A stretch of 64,000 nt of DNA from Candidatus Methanoperedens nitratireducens (GTDB lineage Archaea; Halobacteriota; Methanosarcinia; Methanosarcinales; Methanoperedenaceae): the NCBI RefSeq assembly GCF_000685155.1, contig NZ_JMIY01000007.1, positions 443,381-507,380 of the forward strand, given 5' to 3'. Positions within the stretch are counted from its first letter, which is position 1. Each line of letters starts with the position of its first letter. Positions 1,752 to 7,549 of the stretch are shown piece after piece. The position numbers and the translations under genes were made by a program. The notes under the pieces are model-generated. The model did not search any database. It saw only the letters and a list, made by a program, of their open reading frames with translations, and was not told the origin of the DNA.

Positions 1752-2084
1752 CTATTTTACTTTACTCTCGCACTCTTTCTTCAGTTCCTGTATTCTCGTA
1801 TCAAGGTTAAGAAGAAACCGTTCAATTGCCTTTTCTTCGCTTTCTGATTCAAGCTTTCCATAGCCTTTCTGGAAACGTTTCGGTTCCATCTCAATGAGAT
1901 AAGTCTCAAAAAATATGCATGTTGTGTAAATCTCGTTGTAAATATCTTTCTTCTTTATCGATATACCTAGGTATTTCAGAAAGTTATTTACCTCTTGTCT
2001 CAAGTCCCTCACTATCTTCAAGATATCTTCAGACTCACCTTCCAGCTTAAGCCTAGTCTCAAACTGCTCCAGAGCGGCATCCAT
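1752..2084 (-). CDS. Hypothetical helical protein, candidate fluoride-responsive
   Basis: A 110-residue, charged, mostly helical protein with no cysteine pairs, membrane segment or signal peptide; I do not recognise it. The N-terminal half has heptad-like spacing (LEQFETRLKLEG, ILKIVRDLRQEV). It lies 154 bases downstream of the 139-residue gene on the same strand and may be co-transcribed with it from the riboswitch-headed promoter near 3020. The ribosome binding site is weak. No function is proposed beyond possible membership of that regulon. Confidence 0.6.
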   Translation of the reverse strand: MDAALEQFETRLKLEGESEDILKIVRDLRQEVNNFLKYLGISIKKKDIYNEIYTTCIFFETYLIEMEPKRFQKGYGKLESESEEKAIERFLLNLDTRIQELKKECESKVK

Positions 2085-2238
2085 AGATCCCAGGCGCGAT
2101 CCGAAGTAATTAACATGTTGAAGTTGAATTTATATCACCTCATTCTTGGGATAGCAAATAAAACAATTCTTTTAAGATAATTTTGCTGATCTTCTCCTTA
2201 ATTTCTGTTAGTAATAGACAGAAGAACTCATTAGGCTT

Positions 2239-2658
2239 TTACCTGAGAGCCGAAAGCATATCATTGACCATCCTCAGTAATCCCTGAATCTGAGGCCTCA
2301 GGAGTTCCTTATCTTTCTCAGTCAGTGGACCATACGCAGTGAGCCTCTCAGGTCTCAAATCTTCAAGAAGAGTCCATATCTCTATTAATAAGCTATAGAC
2401 TTCCTTCTCGATAGATTCCTTTCTAGTCCCCAACTCAGCCTCTTCTTTGACTCGCTTGATTTCTTGAAGCATAGATTGCACACCGCTCAATATCCTTGTT
2501 GCTTTCATTTGATCGATGTCGTTCACCTTGGAGTAAAAGATGGTATCTCTGGTTCCTCCAGCCCGCTGCAATTCACCGGCTATGTTGCGCAAATCTTTCT
2601 CAATTATGAGAAGGCTAGTGCTCAAAGCTCTCTTATGGTTATCGTCCAATGTGGTCAC
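2239..2658 (-). CDS. Hypothetical helical protein, first gene after fluoride riboswitch copy 1
   Basis: A 139-residue helical protein with no recognised domain and no membrane segment. The listed start is a GTG at 2658; a TTG three codons later (2649) has a better-placed AGGTGA and may be the true start. It is the first substantial gene downstream of the crcB-type aptamer at 2932-2993, about 270 bases away. By synteny with the second copy, which controls an antiporter, this gene is inferred to respond to fluoride. It is not similar to known fluoride channels (CrcB/Fluc, CLC-F). Confidence 0.6.
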   Translation of the reverse strand: MTTLDDNHKRALSTSLLIIEKDLRNIAGELQRAGGTRDTIFYSKVNDIDQMKATRILSGVQSMLQEIKRVKEEAELGTRKESIEKEVYSLLIEIWTLLEDLRPERLTAYGPLTEKDKELLRPQIQGLLRMVNDMLSALR

Positions 2659-2750: not shown

Positions 2751-2907
2751 CTACTCTAAGCATATGATTTGGTGCCCGGCATGTATATTATTATCCTTGG
2801 AAACAACTGCCATTGACGAATAATATGGACTAGTAAATATACCACTTAACTCAATAACCCCTGATAAAAAATTCAAGATTCTCTCGATTGCTATATTCTT
2901 GGTTCAT
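2751..2907 (-). pseudogene. Degenerate copy of the riboswitch leader ORF
   Basis: Directly after riboswitch copy 1, an ATG at 2907 preceded by AAGGTG starts an 18-codon ORF (MNQEYSNREN...) that stops at about 2851. The DNA aligns with the 44-codon leader ORF at 5103-5237 but has one extra base near the start. In the shifted frame the conserved words return: LNF, VIELSGIF, SPYY, ending at a TAG at 2751. I read this as a frameshifted relic of the leader ORF; a shortened functional leader peptide is also possible. Confidence 0.6.
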
Positions 2908-2931
2908 TACGGTTCACCTTCTTACTTGAAA

Positions 2932-2993
2932 ATAGAAGTTATCAGTCTCGATCGAGACAATTTAGGCTAATACCAAGGCGAACCTCATCGCCC
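2932..2993 (-). promoter_or_regulatory. Fluoride (crcB) riboswitch, copy 1
   Basis: Read on the minus strand the RNA is GGGCGAUGAGGUUCGCC, a small GGU/GCC hairpin insert, AAAUUG, GUCUC-GAUC-GAGAC, then CUGAUAACUUCUA. This matches the fluoride aptamer layout (for example the Thermotoga petrophila RNA): P1 GGCG/CGCC, the AGGUU loop pairing with AACUU as pseudoknot, and the CUGAU element. A TATA box (CGTGTATATAT, about 3016-3026) places transcription start within a few bases of the aptamer. The hairpin stem and insert differ from copy 2 but keep base pairing. Confidence 0.87.
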
Positions 2994-3128
2994 ACATATA
3001 ATTTTAATGTGCATTCGTGTATATATCTTTAATGCCTGGTTGAGAATATCAAGTAACCCTGTATCACAGTCATACGTAGTCGTAGACGTTTGAAAAAATA
3101 ACATACTGAGCGAGTAATTCCTTGCTCT

Positions 3129-3467
3129 TCAATCAGCAGTCATTCTTTCCCTATCGTTACTTCGGTTGCCTTTACCAGTGTCATTACTTATCCTTTCTAA
3201 TGCCTCCAATGCGCTTTTCCTGACAGGAACCATGTCAAAAACGCTGGCTTGTTCTAATATTGGTATTGCCTTTTTACTACCTATCTTCCCAAGGGCTTCT
3301 GCAGCCGCAGCTCTGACATAAATATCTGGATCAGACCTGAGGCTTTCAATTATTTCACCCAGCAGCCAGGCAACTTCTTTTCGCTTTTGAGGCCGAGGAT
3401 GGGTCTTAAGGGAATTAATTAGTTTTGGTAAATAGACGTTATTGTTTTCCACTCTATCAGCGCCCAT
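3129..3467 (-). CDS. Small HEAT-repeat protein
   Basis: A 112-residue protein built of about two HEAT/PBS-lyase-type helical repeats: DPDIYVRAAAAEALGKIGS near residues 50-70 and a second repeat near 75-95 (VPVRKSALEALERI). Such proteins act as protein-binding scaffolds, and some archaeal members attach to phycocyanobilin-lyase-like families; no catalytic motif is present. It lies 60 bases after uspA on the same strand and is the likely last gene of the riboswitch-antiporter-uspA unit. The C-terminus is polar and probably disordered. Confidence 0.75.
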   Translation of the reverse strand: MGADRVENNNVYLPKLINSLKTHPRPQKRKEVAWLLGEIIESLRSDPDIYVRAAAAEALGKIGSKKAIPILEQASVFDMVPVRKSALEALERISNDTGKGNRSNDRERMTAD

Positions 3468-3527: not shown

Positions 3528-3944
3528 CTACCTTACGATCAATATCGGGCAGGGAGAAAAGTGGCTTATTTTATCTGATACGCTGCCGAGAAAGAAGCGC
3601 TTTGTGGTGCTGAGCCCGCGGCTTCCTACGACAATCAAATCGAAATTCTGAGATTTGGCATAATCTACAATTCTATCAGTCGGATGCCCATAAATTATAA
3701 CAGATTTAATTCCTACTTCGCCTTTTCTCGATTCGATAGCCTTGTTCTGTAACTCCTGGTAGAACTTGCCTTCTTCTTCCTGTACCTCAGCGACCTCGTT
3801 TTTGAGGACAGCATAATCAGGTAGCGTTATCACACTTACAAGATGTATTACTGAACCGAATTTTTTTGCGAGTTCAATCGCCGCATCTAATGCCTTTTCA
3901 GAGGGTTTGGAACCGTCAAATGCAACCAAGATTTTTTCAAACAT
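3528..3944 (-). CDS. Universal stress protein, UspA family
   Basis: A 138-residue nucleotide-binding stress protein. The ORF opens upstream at 3977, but the ATG at 3944 (MFEKILVAFDGS) has AGGTG about seven bases upstream and matches the usual family start, so I choose it. The ATP-binding signature GSRG, nine residues, GSVS sits at about 107-122 and the C-terminus ends in the typical CPILIVR strand. The gene starts 33 bases after the antiporter ends. UspA genes are known downstream neighbours of fluoride riboswitches, which agrees with this operon. Confidence 0.9.
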   Translation of the reverse strand: MFEKILVAFDGSKPSEKALDAAIELAKKFGSVIHLVSVITLPDYAVLKNEVAEVQEEEGKFYQELQNKAIESRKGEVGIKSVIIYGHPTDRIVDYAKSQNFDLIVVGSRGLSTTKRFFLGSVSDKISHFSPCPILIVR

Positions 3945-3977
3945 TTCATTACACCTCATTTTATTTATTATTTCCAT

Positions 3978-5096
3978 TTACTTGTTTATGATGTTGGTTG
4001 GAACGAATCGCTTGGCAATCAGAGTGGGTACAACAGCACTGAGTATCACAGCGGCGATGATTATTGAAAACTGTATATCTGAAAGGTATCCCAACTGACG
4101 TCCAAGTGTTGCTGTAATCGATCCAACAGTCAGGCCTGTGCTGAATAGCATAGTGGAAAACATTGGGGCTTCAGGGATACACTTCTTGCAAAGCCAATAC
4201 ACCCCAATGAATTTCGATAAAAGTTTCGCTCCCAGCAATCCAAATACCAGGATGATATTCGCGATAATTGCAGGCAGAGCGATCAACATGCCTGCCCGTA
4301 TGAAGAAAGCTGGAGCGAGGAGAGAGAATGTCACAGTTCTCATCTTCGAAAGGATTTCTTGATGCTGCTGAATGGTATTCGCAAAAATCAGGCCCAAGAC
4401 GAAGGCTCCAAACACCGAATGGAGACTAGCCTGATCTGCGAAGAACGAAATTGCGAACAGTATGGCAAGCACGAATCTTAATTCAATCTCAACCGCTTTC
4501 CTTCCAAAGTCCCGGACCACCTTCCTTAGCAGGATTGGGACCGTCGGGATAAGCGCGATCATGATTACAACGAAAGCAACGGTGACGAGGTCAAACGAAG
4601 TCTGGATAAAGTTAATCCCTAACAGGGTCAGAATATCGTTCACGAACGTTACCGCAATGATGGTTTTCGCAGTCGGAGTCTTGATCAATTCGTATTCCGT
4701 GAGAACAGCATAGACCACTGCAACCGACGTAGTAGTCAGGGCAAGGCCTCCGGCCAATTTTGCCTGCCAGCTCCAGTCGGTGAAAACTGTCAGAACGGTG
4801 ACGATGCCTACAAGAGGAGCCGCGAATGCCATCGTGCCGATTCCAAAGCTTTGTTTTGCCTGTCTTTTAAGAAGAGCGATCTCCACTTCTGCTCCTGCAA
4901 GAAATGTCAGAATCAGACCGCCAAACGTACCCAGAAAATCGAGCCAGGGTATGATTCCTATGCCGAGAGCGTTCGCAAGTACCATGCCAGCACCCACCTC
5001 AAAGATTGAGGAAGATATCTTCGTTTTTAGTCCTATGATGCCAGCTGCTGTTATCGCTACTGCAATTAATGCTGTTGGATATAGATCTACTGCCAT
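3978..5096 (-). CDS. Cation/proton antiporter, CPA2 (Kef/NapA-like) family
   Basis: A 372-residue integral membrane protein with about 11-12 hydrophobic segments and no C-terminal RCK domain. FLAGAEVE near residues 65-72 and TFVNDILTLLG near 150-160 mark the family core, the latter with the Asn-Asp pair typical of electrogenic exchangers. An in-frame TAG directly before the ATG fixes the start. There is almost no Shine-Dalgarno sequence, and the leader ORF stops six bases upstream, so translation is probably coupled to it. Riboswitch copy 2 precedes it, suggesting a role in fluoride or proton/sodium homeostasis; the transported ion is not shown by sequence. Confidence 0.9.
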   Translation of the reverse strand: MAVDLYPTALIAVAITAAGIIGLKTKISSSIFEVGAGMVLANALGIGIIPWLDFLGTFGGLILTFLAGAEVEIALLKRQAKQSFGIGTMAFAAPLVGIVTVLTVFTDWSWQAKLAGGLALTTTSVAVVYAVLTEYELIKTPTAKTIIAVTFVNDILTLLGINFIQTSFDLVTVAFVVIMIALIPTVPILLRKVVRDFGRKAVEIELRFVLAILFAISFFADQASLHSVFGAFVLGLIFANTIQQHQEILSKMRTVTFSLLAPAFFIRAGMLIALPAIIANIILVFGLLGAKLLSKFIGVYWLCKKCIPEAPMFSTMLFSTGLTVGSITATLGRQLGYLSDIQFSIIIAAVILSAVVPTLIAKRFVPTNIINK

Positions 5097-5102
5097 CTAG
5101 CA

Positions 5103-5237
5103 TCAACCCATACCAATTTCTTGTGGCGCTTCGTAGAAGTTATTATTTAAATAATAAGGACTGGCAAATATGCCACTCAATCCAATAACCTCCTGGCAAA
5201 AATTCAAAAACGTCTGTACTGCTATATTTTGGTTCAC
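5103..5237 (-). CDS. 44-residue riboswitch leader peptide, coupled to the antiporter
   Basis: A GTG-started ORF (VNQNIAVQTFLNF...LSGIFASPYYLNNN...) follows AAGGAGG by eight bases and ends six bases before the antiporter ATG. Its ribosome binding site sits inside GGAGGCGAACC, whose GGCGAACC is the exact complement of GGUUCGCC in the aptamer, so ligand binding could control access. The protein words LNF, VI.LSGIF and SPYY recur in the decayed copy near 2.8 kb. I do not recognise the peptide. Its likely job is translational coupling, though it could be a functional small protein. Confidence 0.6.
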   Translation of the reverse strand: MNQNIAVQTFLNFCQEVIGLSGIFASPYYLNNNFYEAPQEIGMG

Positions 5238-5258
5238 TTTGGTTCGCCTCCTTCTTAA

Positions 5259-5320
5259 AATAGAAGTTATCAGTCTCGAATGAGACAGTTTAGGTAAATA
5301 CCAAGGCGAACCTCATCGCC
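5259..5320 (-). promoter_or_regulatory. Fluoride (crcB) riboswitch, copy 2
   Basis: The minus-strand RNA begins GGCGAUGAGGUUCGCC, has a GGUA/UACC mini-hairpin insert, then AAACUG, the stem GUCUC-AUUC-GAGAC, and CUGAUAACUUCUA. All parts of the fluoride aptamer are present, including the AGGUU/AACUU pseudoknot. A TATA box (about 5343-5356) places the start at the aptamer's first bases. Downstream, CUUCU can pair with AGAAG and GGUUCGCC with GGCGAACC, giving an alternative fold that hides the leader ORF's ribosome binding site; this predicts an ON switch acting on translation. Confidence 0.9.
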
Positions 5321-5525
5321 AGATTTCCTATTGATGTGCATTCGTGTATATAATTTTAACTTTAATACCTAGTATTGCCTGTTGAGAAAAGCTTAATTTC
5401 TTGTAATGCAACTTGAGGCTGTGGTTTCCGTATTCTTGTATAGAAACAGGTGATGGAGTTCACCTTCAACCGCTTGATAGCTGATAACTCCTACCGATCA
5501 ATGTTATTGGAAGGAAATATCGGCT

Positions 5526-6353
5526 ATGGATGGATGCAAAGAACGGGCTGTCAATTATGTAATGGAACGTAAATGCAAAAAAGGTGGATTTTGCTTTTAC
5601 AGATTAGAAGAGCCAAATGCTTCAGATACTTATTATGCTTTATCGATCCTATACTTATTAAGTACCAATTTTAAAGACGAGAACACGCTGGCTTATTTAA
5701 GAAGTTTACAGAATAATCATGGCTCATATCAAAGTGTTTATTCGGCATTCTACTCGATTAAGAGTTTGTTATTGTTAAATGAAGAACTAAAGTGCGACCC
5801 AACACCGTACATAACAAGAAATCTAAGAATTTACAGCGTCGATAATCTGCCAGAGGAAAATACATCGATTTTTGAACCGATGTATTATTTAATCGATTTA
5901 TGCTTTGCTTTGAAAATTGGGCAATATGACAACTTCAAGAATGATATAACCGATTTCGTTTTAAATTTTCAAAAGGATGATAGAGGTTTTGGCTATACCC
6001 GCTCCACACTTATTGAAACTTCTCAGGCATTGGTGATCTTAAACTTGTTGAACTATCCAATAAATATTCTAAAGACAGAACACTTCATTAAAAAATGCGA
6101 AAATCCAATTTATGGTTTTGTGAATGTCCCTGACACATCTCCCTCGTTTATTGAACATATTTATGCTGGTGCTATAGCCTCTAATATAATCTCTTACAAA
6201 CCATGTTATATTAATCAATGCATTGAAATAATAAGAAAGTGTCAGAATAATAATGGAGGCTTTTCAAGAGCAGCAGATGGTGGAATATCTACGCTGGAAA
6301 ACACATATTATGCTATTCGTTCTTTAAAATTATTATCTGCATTAAAAATATGA
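5526..6353 (+). CDS. Prenyltransferase/squalene-cyclase-like helical barrel protein
   Basis: A 275-residue protein made of repeats of the (alpha/alpha)6 terpenoid-cyclase/prenyltransferase type: GGFCFYR near residue 20, DRGFGYTRSTLIETSQALVI near 151-170, and GGFSRAADGGIS near 240-251 before the final helix pair (ENTYYAIRSL). No catalytic DxDD or zinc-ligand set is evident, so enzyme activity is uncertain. It overlaps the ribosome binding site of the MFS gene, and the two form an operon. The AT content is higher than in the MFS neighbour. Confidence 0.7.
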   Translation: MDGCKERAVNYVMERKCKKGGFCFYRLEEPNASDTYYALSILYLLSTNFKDENTLAYLRSLQNNHGSYQSVYSAFYSIKSLLLLNEELKCDPTPYITRNLRIYSVDNLPEENTSIFEPMYYLIDLCFALKIGQYDNFKNDITDFVLNFQKDDRGFGYTRSTLIETSQALVILNLLNYPINILKTEHFIKKCENPIYGFVNVPDTSPSFIEHIYAGAIASNIISYKPCYINQCIEIIRKCQNNNGGFSRAADGGISTLENTYYAIRSLKLLSALKI

Positions 6354-6364
6354 GGAGGATATAG

Positions 6365-7549
6365 ATGGAGGCACCTGGAGAAGGTAACAGGTATAATGCA
6401 AAAGGAGCTGCACTGAAGTTTGTCATTTTACTTGGTGCGGTGAGCCTCTTTGCGGACACGACATACGAAGGGGCGCGCAGCATCACAGGTCCTTATCTTG
6501 CTATTCTTGGGGCAAGTGGAGCCGTCGTGGGAATTGTTGCAGGATTCGGTGAGTTGATCGGGTATGGTCTGCGCCTGGTCTCTGGCTACATAAGTGATAG
6601 AACAGGGAAATACTGGACAATAACTCTTTTTGGATACGGGATTAATCTCCTTGCAGTTCCTCTCCTGGCACTGGCAGGGCGGTGGGAAATTGCTTCCCTT
6701 CTCATGATTGCAGAGCGAATGGGAAAAGCGGTTCGCACTCCTGCCAGAGACGCTATGCTTTCACATGCTACTGTGAAAATGGGGCGAGGCTGGGGATTCG
6801 GCTTGCATGAGGCACTGGATCAGATAGGTGCGATGCTTGGCCCGCTCATTGTAGCTGGGGTTCTTTATTTCAGGGGAGGTTATCAGATGAGCTTTGGTGT
6901 CCTGCTTGTACCAGCCCTGCTGGCGCTAAGCGTTCTAGCCGCAGCGCGTCTGCTCTATCCACATCCCCGTGCTTTCGAAGTTGGCTCGGTCAAACTGGAG
7001 AGCAAAGTTTTCCCAAAAGTATTCTGGATATATCTTGGTGCAGTCGCTTTCATTGCAGCAGGGTATGTTGATTTTCCGCTAATTGCCTATCATTTCAAGA
7101 GGGTATCTATCGTTTCAGATGATTGGATTCCTGTGTTCTATGCTATTGCCATGGGAGTTGATGCACTCGCAGCGCTTATATTTGGGCGTTTATTTGACAG
7201 GATCGGTATTTCTGTCCTGATAGCTGCTGCCCTCATTTCTTCGATTTTTGCCCCGTTAGTCTTCTTGGGAGGATTTTATTTTGCTCTTCTGGGAATGGCT
7301 TTATGGGGTGTAGGCATGGGAGCTCAGGAATCCATTATGAGAGCCGCTATTGCAGGGATGGTTTCGATGGATAGACGTGGATCAGCGTATGGAATTTTTA
7401 ATACAGGTTACGGGATATTCTGGTTCTTAGGCAGCGCATTAATGGGGATTCTCTATGATATATCGATTCCATATCTAATTATATTCTCAGTAGCGGCGCA
7501 GCTTGCCTCTGTCCCCCCTCTTCTTCTGGTCAGAAAAGAGCCCGTATAA
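6365..7549 (+). CDS. Major facilitator superfamily transporter
   Basis: A 394-residue membrane protein with about 12 hydrophobic segments. The loop after helix 2 has SGYISDRTGKYW (near residues 73-84), the MFS signature, and a matching GRLFDRIG lies near 274-281 in the second half. It starts 11 bases after the barrel gene with a GAGGAGG that overlaps that gene's stop codon. The substrate cannot be told; related archaeal proteins are annotated only as MFS permeases. Confidence 0.85.
   Translation: MEAPGEGNRYNAKGAALKFVILLGAVSLFADTTYEGARSITGPYLAILGASGAVVGIVAGFGELIGYGLRLVSGYISDRTGKYWTITLFGYGINLLAVPLLALAGRWEIASLLMIAERMGKAVRTPARDAMLSHATVKMGRGWGFGLHEALDQIGAMLGPLIVAGVLYFRGGYQMSFGVLLVPALLALSVLAAARLLYPHPRAFEVGSVKLESKVFPKVFWIYLGAVAFIAAGYVDFPLIAYHFKRVSIVSDDWIPVFYAIAMGVDALAALIFGRLFDRIGISVLIAAALISSIFAPLVFLGGFYFALLGMALWGVGMGAQESIMRAAIAGMVSMDRRGSAYGIFNTGYGIFWFLGSALMGILYDISIPYLIIFSVAAQLASVPPLLLVRKEPV

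Follow-up and report, generated by a model that had tools for sequence, protein, structure and literature searches.

Fluoride riboswitches of the crcB motif (RF01734) are known to precede genes coding for exporters, Na+/H+ antiporters, pyrophosphatase, HAD proteins, enolase and formate hydrogen lyase (PMC11139923), and the linkage of such a riboswitch to an Na+/H+ antiporter operon, as in copy A described below, is also already known (PMC11139923). The word dynamin is absent from that review, the open-access literature yielded no paper linking fluoride riboswitches with dynamin, and none of the open-access titles and abstracts was visibly on fluoride riboswitches in Methanoperedens. The riboswitch of the present locus is of this known kind; the family of small helical proteins encoded behind it (HEL) and the tie of that family to fluoride are undescribed as far as the open literature shows.

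The window, i.e., the whole stretch of 64,000 nucleotides that was analyzed, belongs to the 3.2-Mb genome of Candidatus Methanoperedens nitratireducens (10 contigs), the genus being represented by 31 genomes in the comparison set. The features of the locus, in window positions, are the following.

1752–2084, minus strand: P2, HEL-family protein of 110 aa, distantly paralogous to P1 (alignment, profile match); may begin upstream at ~2129
2239–2658, minus strand: P1, 139-aa helical-bundle protein of the HEL family (profile match, structure model); groups with the homologue from genome G381
2851–2907, minus strand: 18-codon leader ORF (MNQEYSNRENLEFFIRGY), predicted to be directly controlled by the expression platform; its frame is shifted with respect to the leader ORF of copy A (sequence and alignment)
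2911–2920, minus strand: AAGGUGAACC, containing the Shine-Dalgarno GGUGA (2914–2918), sequestered by 2975–2984 in the predicted fold; the A copy pairs equivalently
2926–3001 (core 2932–2992), minus strand: fluoride riboswitch aptamer, copy B (RF01734)
2975–2984, minus strand: anti-Shine-Dalgarno strand GGUUCGCCUU within the aptamer, pairing with 2911–2920 in the predicted fluoride-free fold
3020–3025, minus strand: TATA box (TATATA) of the copy B promoter, predicted transcript start ~2997 (sequence; identical TATATACACGAATGCACAT block in copy A)
3129–3467, minus strand: HEAT-repeat protein of operon A (PF13646)
3528–3977, minus strand: universal stress protein of operon A (PF00582)
3978–5096, minus strand: Kef-type CPA2 Na+(K+)/H+ antiporter, first main gene of operon A (PF00999, E 6e-36)
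5103–5237, minus strand: copy A leader ORF, 44 codons, with 6 nt between its end and the start codon of Kef (sequence)
5254–5329, minus strand: copy A of the fluoride riboswitch, from which copy B derives or to which it is sister (RF01734, 44.1 bits)
5440–5500, plus strand: third fluoride riboswitch, copy C, divergent from copy A (RF01734, 59.9 bits)
5526–6353, plus strand: toroid (prenyltransferase-fold) protein behind copy C (PF00432), with homologues in HEL islands
6365–7549, plus strand: MFS transporter under copy C (PF07690); an MFS gene recurs in HEL islands

Covariance search using cmscan placed copy B above the Rfam gathering score (36.7 vs 34 bits; E 1.6e-6 over the whole window), and the second fluoride riboswitch proposed at this site by the first-pass annotation was found to be real. 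The element aligned to the whole length of the model, 11 nt being inserted between the P1 stem and the next strand, and its P1 hairpin, pseudoknot strands and UGAU...CUAU core were intact. It carries the hallmarks of the aptamer, i.e., a P1 stem with a GAUG loop, a pseudoknot to the CU(U/C)CUA strand and the UGAU core (GGCGAUGAGGUUCGCC ... CUGAUAACUUCUAU). By its covariance score, the element at 2926–3001 on the minus strand is a genuine fluoride riboswitch, for which fluoride binding and switching are predicted. Like other members of the crcB motif, copy B scores above the gathering threshold and keeps the P1 stem, pseudoknot and core nucleotides; it differs in the 11-nt insert between P1 and P3, in heading genes of an undescribed family and in controlling, to begin with, a short leader ORF. 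RF01734 matched the 3.2-Mb genome at three places only (copies A, B and C), all inside the window. A divergent riboswitch pair before toroid and MFS genes, arranged as in the window, was also observed in another genome of the genus (G029, locus L031). In the weak partner of that pair (6238–6308, plus strand, 27.9 bits), which lies 36 nt from the contig end, the insert hairpin is GGC/GCC and the off-state helix CAUGCCUG/CAGGCAUG.

Copies A and B share 81% identity across 210 bp. The homology covers the TATA box, the aptamer, the Shine-Dalgarno sequestrator and the start of the leader ORF and stops short of the genes; hence, copy B represents a duplicated leader placed ahead of different genes. 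The earlier description of a paralogous aptamer with a kept promoter, P1 stem and pseudoknot was borne out by the A/B alignment and by cmscan. The two copies differ in 5 of 61 aptamer columns and in 30 of 112 columns of the downstream leader (Fisher p = 0.003), and the lower divergence of the aptamer fits purifying selection acting on it. The insert hairpin, GGUA-UU-UACC in copy A and GGU-AUUA-GCC in copy B, was rejected as proof of covariation, since one A-U pair is lost and one U-A pair has become U-G, which is not compensatory. Structure is better supported by the off-state helix, which both copies retain and in which GGUUCGCCUU pairs with AAGGUGAACC in copy B and with GGCGAACC in copy A, two changes preserving the pairing. 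The covariation argument from the insert hairpin proved weak.

The expression platform was examined by predicted folding. Pairing between the aptamer strand GGUUCGCC(UU) and the Shine-Dalgarno region is possible in copy A as well as in copy B and gives a multibranched off-state, with z-scores against shuffled sequences of -3.5 (B) and -5.3 (A). The length of the arm-pairing was reached in ~3% of the shuffles, so that the pairing is suggestive taken alone and stronger within the full fold. According to this model, fluoride should turn translation on (ON switch). In most riboswitch-bearing relatives within the genus, a Kef-type antiporter gene comes directly after the aptamer, and most of the predicted folds of those relatives have the pseudoknot strand CUCC paired with the Shine-Dalgarno. 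A one-base shift in copy B shortens the equivalent leader ORF from 44 codons (A) to 18, and the P1 start lies ~190 nt beyond that ORF. As the copy B switch governs the 18-codon ORF, simple unmasking of the P1 start codon does not apply, and fluoride control of protein P1 itself is likely. A TATA-like sequence, TAAAATAA, is present at 2683–2690, 24 nt before the GTG of P1; it could yield a fluoride-independent leaderless transcript and is a possible bypass. Short ORFs between a fluoride aptamer and the main gene were observed in several leaders (window 5103–5237 and 2851–2907; L097 ~5380–5480; L111 ~4620–4790). Those of copy A and L097 end at or overlap the next start codon, an arrangement that suggests translational coupling, possible in copy A between the leader ORF and the Kef gene. 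The copy A leader peptide as a conserved small protein was rejected by homologue search. The Kef gene matched TIGR00932 with E 4e-30, yet with 105.3 bits against a cut-off of 238.3. In many archaea, homologues of the toroid protein are riboswitch-led or belong to HEL islands; in the genus, the protein is confined to the window and G029.

Both P1 and P2 are open reading frames for which the annotated frame was the best of six by codon usage, with a strong score for the 110-aa ORF (0.20) and a modest one for the 139-aa ORF (0.074, the 95th percentile of spurious ORFs being 0.065). Their local alignment scored 70 (shuffle mean 32, sd 5.4), a value reached in 0 of 500 shuffles, and by this alignment the two are distant paralogues. 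A strong Shine-Dalgarno, GAGGTGAT (2134–2141, minus strand), is placed for an ATT codon at 2127–2129, a possible non-canonical start of P2 that would add 15 residues. For P1 and P2, Pfam and NCBIfam gave nothing above threshold and PHROGs and PADLOC nothing significant, and the search of the genus revealed no relative in its 30 other genomes. The absence of CrcB/Fluc or CLC matches in Pfam and NCBIfam agreed with the earlier view that they are unlike known fluoride exporters; with the CrcB/Fluc and CLC-F exporters they share the regulatory element, whereas they themselves are small helical proteins without exporter similarity. The structure model of P1 is a helical bundle with pLDDT 81, built from only two sequences; a structure search with it returned generic helical bundles only, none with E < 0.001. 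The P2 model (pLDDT 55) was unusable. Profile matches to PDB sequences were confined to coiled-coil or designed-helix entries (best E 3e-4 over 28 residues) and were read as compositional.

Single-sequence searches returned nothing usable in 100 relatives, genome contigs, viral contigs, plasmids or phages; a match in G062 was an unrelated 255-aa protein and was rejected as a homologue. A two-sequence profile restricted to the class gave weak matches only (E 1e-3 or worse). A first profile built from P1 and P2 only, and hence blind to RNA, was searched against 393 genomes of the phylum; at E ≤ 0.001, it had non-self matches in G381 (E 6.7e-24), G272 (2.3e-7), G254 (1.9e-6) and G343 (3.8e-4). 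An Rfam scan following this protein search revealed RF01734 at all four non-self loci (L064, L065, L066 and L067), with two riboswitches in L066 and four within 16 kb in L067. Locus L064 has one of 44.6 bits on the plus strand and one, just sub-threshold, of 30.1 bits on the same strand as and upstream of the operon of the homologue. A second profile of six sequences detected the domain in 27 of the 232 genomes in the class of G343, G343 included. RF01734 was present at 24 of its 26 new loci, within the 3–10 kb of DNA examined; the two loci without it were L105, cut near a contig end, and L114, a 3.2-kb contig. None of 14 control regions (10 kb each, mostly 50–100 kb away, in genomes of the same set) contained RF01734. 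The difference between 24/26 and 0/14 (Fisher p = 5e-9) is indicative, as the controls are unmatched for contig end and gene content and related genomes are non-independent, yet the loci span several families. Across 32 HEL genes, 27 have a riboswitch upstream on the same strand.

The search in the class of G343 could be objected to as a transitive chain. This objection is answered by a profile-profile comparison, in which the core set matched the G343-class set (hhalign probability 97.4, E 1.3e-11, 134 columns), together with the independent loci of the first profile. P1 and P2 match the HEL profile over their full length, including the region (L/M)(R/E/K)P-x-(R/K/H)-x-x-G-(Y/F)-G, the family being defined in the present analysis by a full-length profile match and a fluoride-riboswitch locus. 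In the phylogenetic tree, P1 grouped with the G381 homologue (99/96) and P2 weakly with the G254/G272 type (90/57), on long branches; hence, two subtypes seem to be represented in the window, by one protein each. These profile comparisons place P1 and P2 in an undescribed family, made up of small helical proteins associated with fluoride. The first-pass annotation had put them forward as candidates for a new fluoride response and had named the occurrence of homologues near fluoride riboswitches in other archaea as one of the checks. Such homologues, found by protein alone, do lie there, and a prediction made from raw sequence was later confirmed by comparative genomics.

The loci in other archaea take the form of gene islands. 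Recurring neighbours are enolase, a dynamin-like GTPase, the toroid protein and MFS or Kef-type transporters; a manual map count over the 30 non-window HEL loci gave a dynamin-like GTPase in 23, enolase in 21 and the toroid protein in 16. Riboswitch, dynamin, toroid, enolase and HEL frequently follow one another in this order (L115, L117, L119 and L120), and HEL often lies ~4 nt after enolase or overlaps it (L099, L100, L103, L106 and L113–L115). In L066, one strand carries a riboswitch, MFS gene, helical protein, riboswitch and dynamin-like GTPase in that order. Fusions with HEL N-terminal to dynamin were found in L067, L100, L103, L107, L108, L111 and probably L104. In L067, the helical domain forms the N-terminal part of a riboswitch-led 755-aa dynamin-like GTPase, beside which lie enolase, MFS, a second riboswitch-led dynamin-like GTPase and a riboswitch-led homologue of the toroid protein of the window. 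Side observations in these islands include a P-type proton-ATPase-like gene adjoining the riboswitch-led dynamin-like gene of L066 (2055–6463, G254) and, within L067 (1–16001, G343; four fluoride riboswitches, two dynamin-like GTPases), a DUF92-like protein besides the enolase, MFS and toroid genes. L064 (2379–4853) contains two divergent DUF6062 genes, each behind a fluoride riboswitch (one just sub-threshold), a gene pair that would tie this uncharacterized family to fluoride.

The island GTPases resemble Leo dynamin-like proteins (PADLOC). In relation to prokaryotic dynamin-like GTPases (PF00350; LeoA/LeoBC-type), HEL is fused to or beside such GTPases in many related islands, whereas P1 and P2 have no Dynamin_N GTPase domain (Pfam) and no PADLOC anti-phage defence match, the resemblance to Leo GTPases being confined to the GTPases of their relatives. 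No dynamin or enolase homologue was detected in the 1.65 Mb (~half) of the source genome searched; hence, an adaptor role of HEL would have no partner in this genome so far, and the partner may be located elsewhere or may have been lost.

The reading that we consider probable is that P1 and P2 are riboswitch-led and respond to fluoride. Copy B arose when the leader of the Kef antiporter operon next to it was duplicated, and it would now head the two-gene unit P1-P2. Without fluoride, the pairing of the aptamer strand with the Shine-Dalgarno region would block initiation; fluoride-Mg would stabilize the P1 stem and pseudoknot and free the Shine-Dalgarno. In copy B, the freed site would start the 18-codon leader ORF, and P1/P2 output could rise via ribosome occupancy or coupling. 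Alternatively, copy B could be a decaying duplicate, with P1 and P2 expressed from their own promoter (the TATA-like box at 2683–2690), so that a fluoride-linked family would yet be fluoride-independent here. The frameshifted leader ORF, the long gap ahead of P1, the T6 run at 2866–2871, which could terminate transcription, and the TATA-like box before the GTG all agree with decay. This is nevertheless unlikely, as the aptamer is significantly better conserved than the leader, the copy B core is intact and its off-state folds, HEL genes elsewhere are usually riboswitch-led (once 27 nt behind the aptamer, in L097) and short ORFs precede the main gene in several leaders of the same set. Still less probable is that HEL genes are hitchhiking passengers of the fluoride island with a function unrelated to fluoride. 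The islands are indeed gene-rich and rearranged between species; however, HEL is directly riboswitch-led in several lineages with differing neighbours (window, L097, L104, L109, L111 and L067), and the linkage persists over very deep sequence divergence.

With regard to function, P1 and P2 are members of HEL, a family that would be part of a Halobacteriota fluoride-stress island together with enolase, the dynamin-like GTPase, the toroid protein and MFS or Kef-type transporters, and the HEL domain could be an adaptor of the membrane-acting dynamin-like GTPase, serving tolerance rather than fluoride export. The adaptor role is proposed tentatively, at somewhat less than an even chance, because no other functional link seen is as strong as the fusion; the absence of transporter features suggests tolerance and not export. 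The main rival of the adaptor role, which appears rather doubtful, is that HEL works with enolase instead, as a protecting or assembly factor. Enolase is a classic fluoride-inhibited enzyme, and its presence at 21 of the 30 non-window loci, with HEL often immediately behind or overlapping, speaks for such a role. Against it, HEL fusions involve dynamin and none was seen with enolase, and HEL has no enolase near it in L064, L097, L110, L118 and the window.

P1, P2 and their relatives in about 30 other archaeal genomes suggest that the response to fluoride stress has a part as yet undescribed. A new family of small proteins is added to the fluoride regulon, as are, in archaea, the dynamin-like GTPases and the toroid proteins; together they provide a concrete gene set for testing how cells survive once fluoride is inside. 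It is about equally likely to be true or not that HEL, the dynamin-like GTPase, the toroid protein and the riboswitch-driven enolase constitute an undescribed, export-independent fluoride-tolerance system of Halobacteriota, probably acting in membrane protection or remodelling, of which the window would hold a reduced version comprising HEL, the toroid protein, the MFS transporter and the Kef antiporter.
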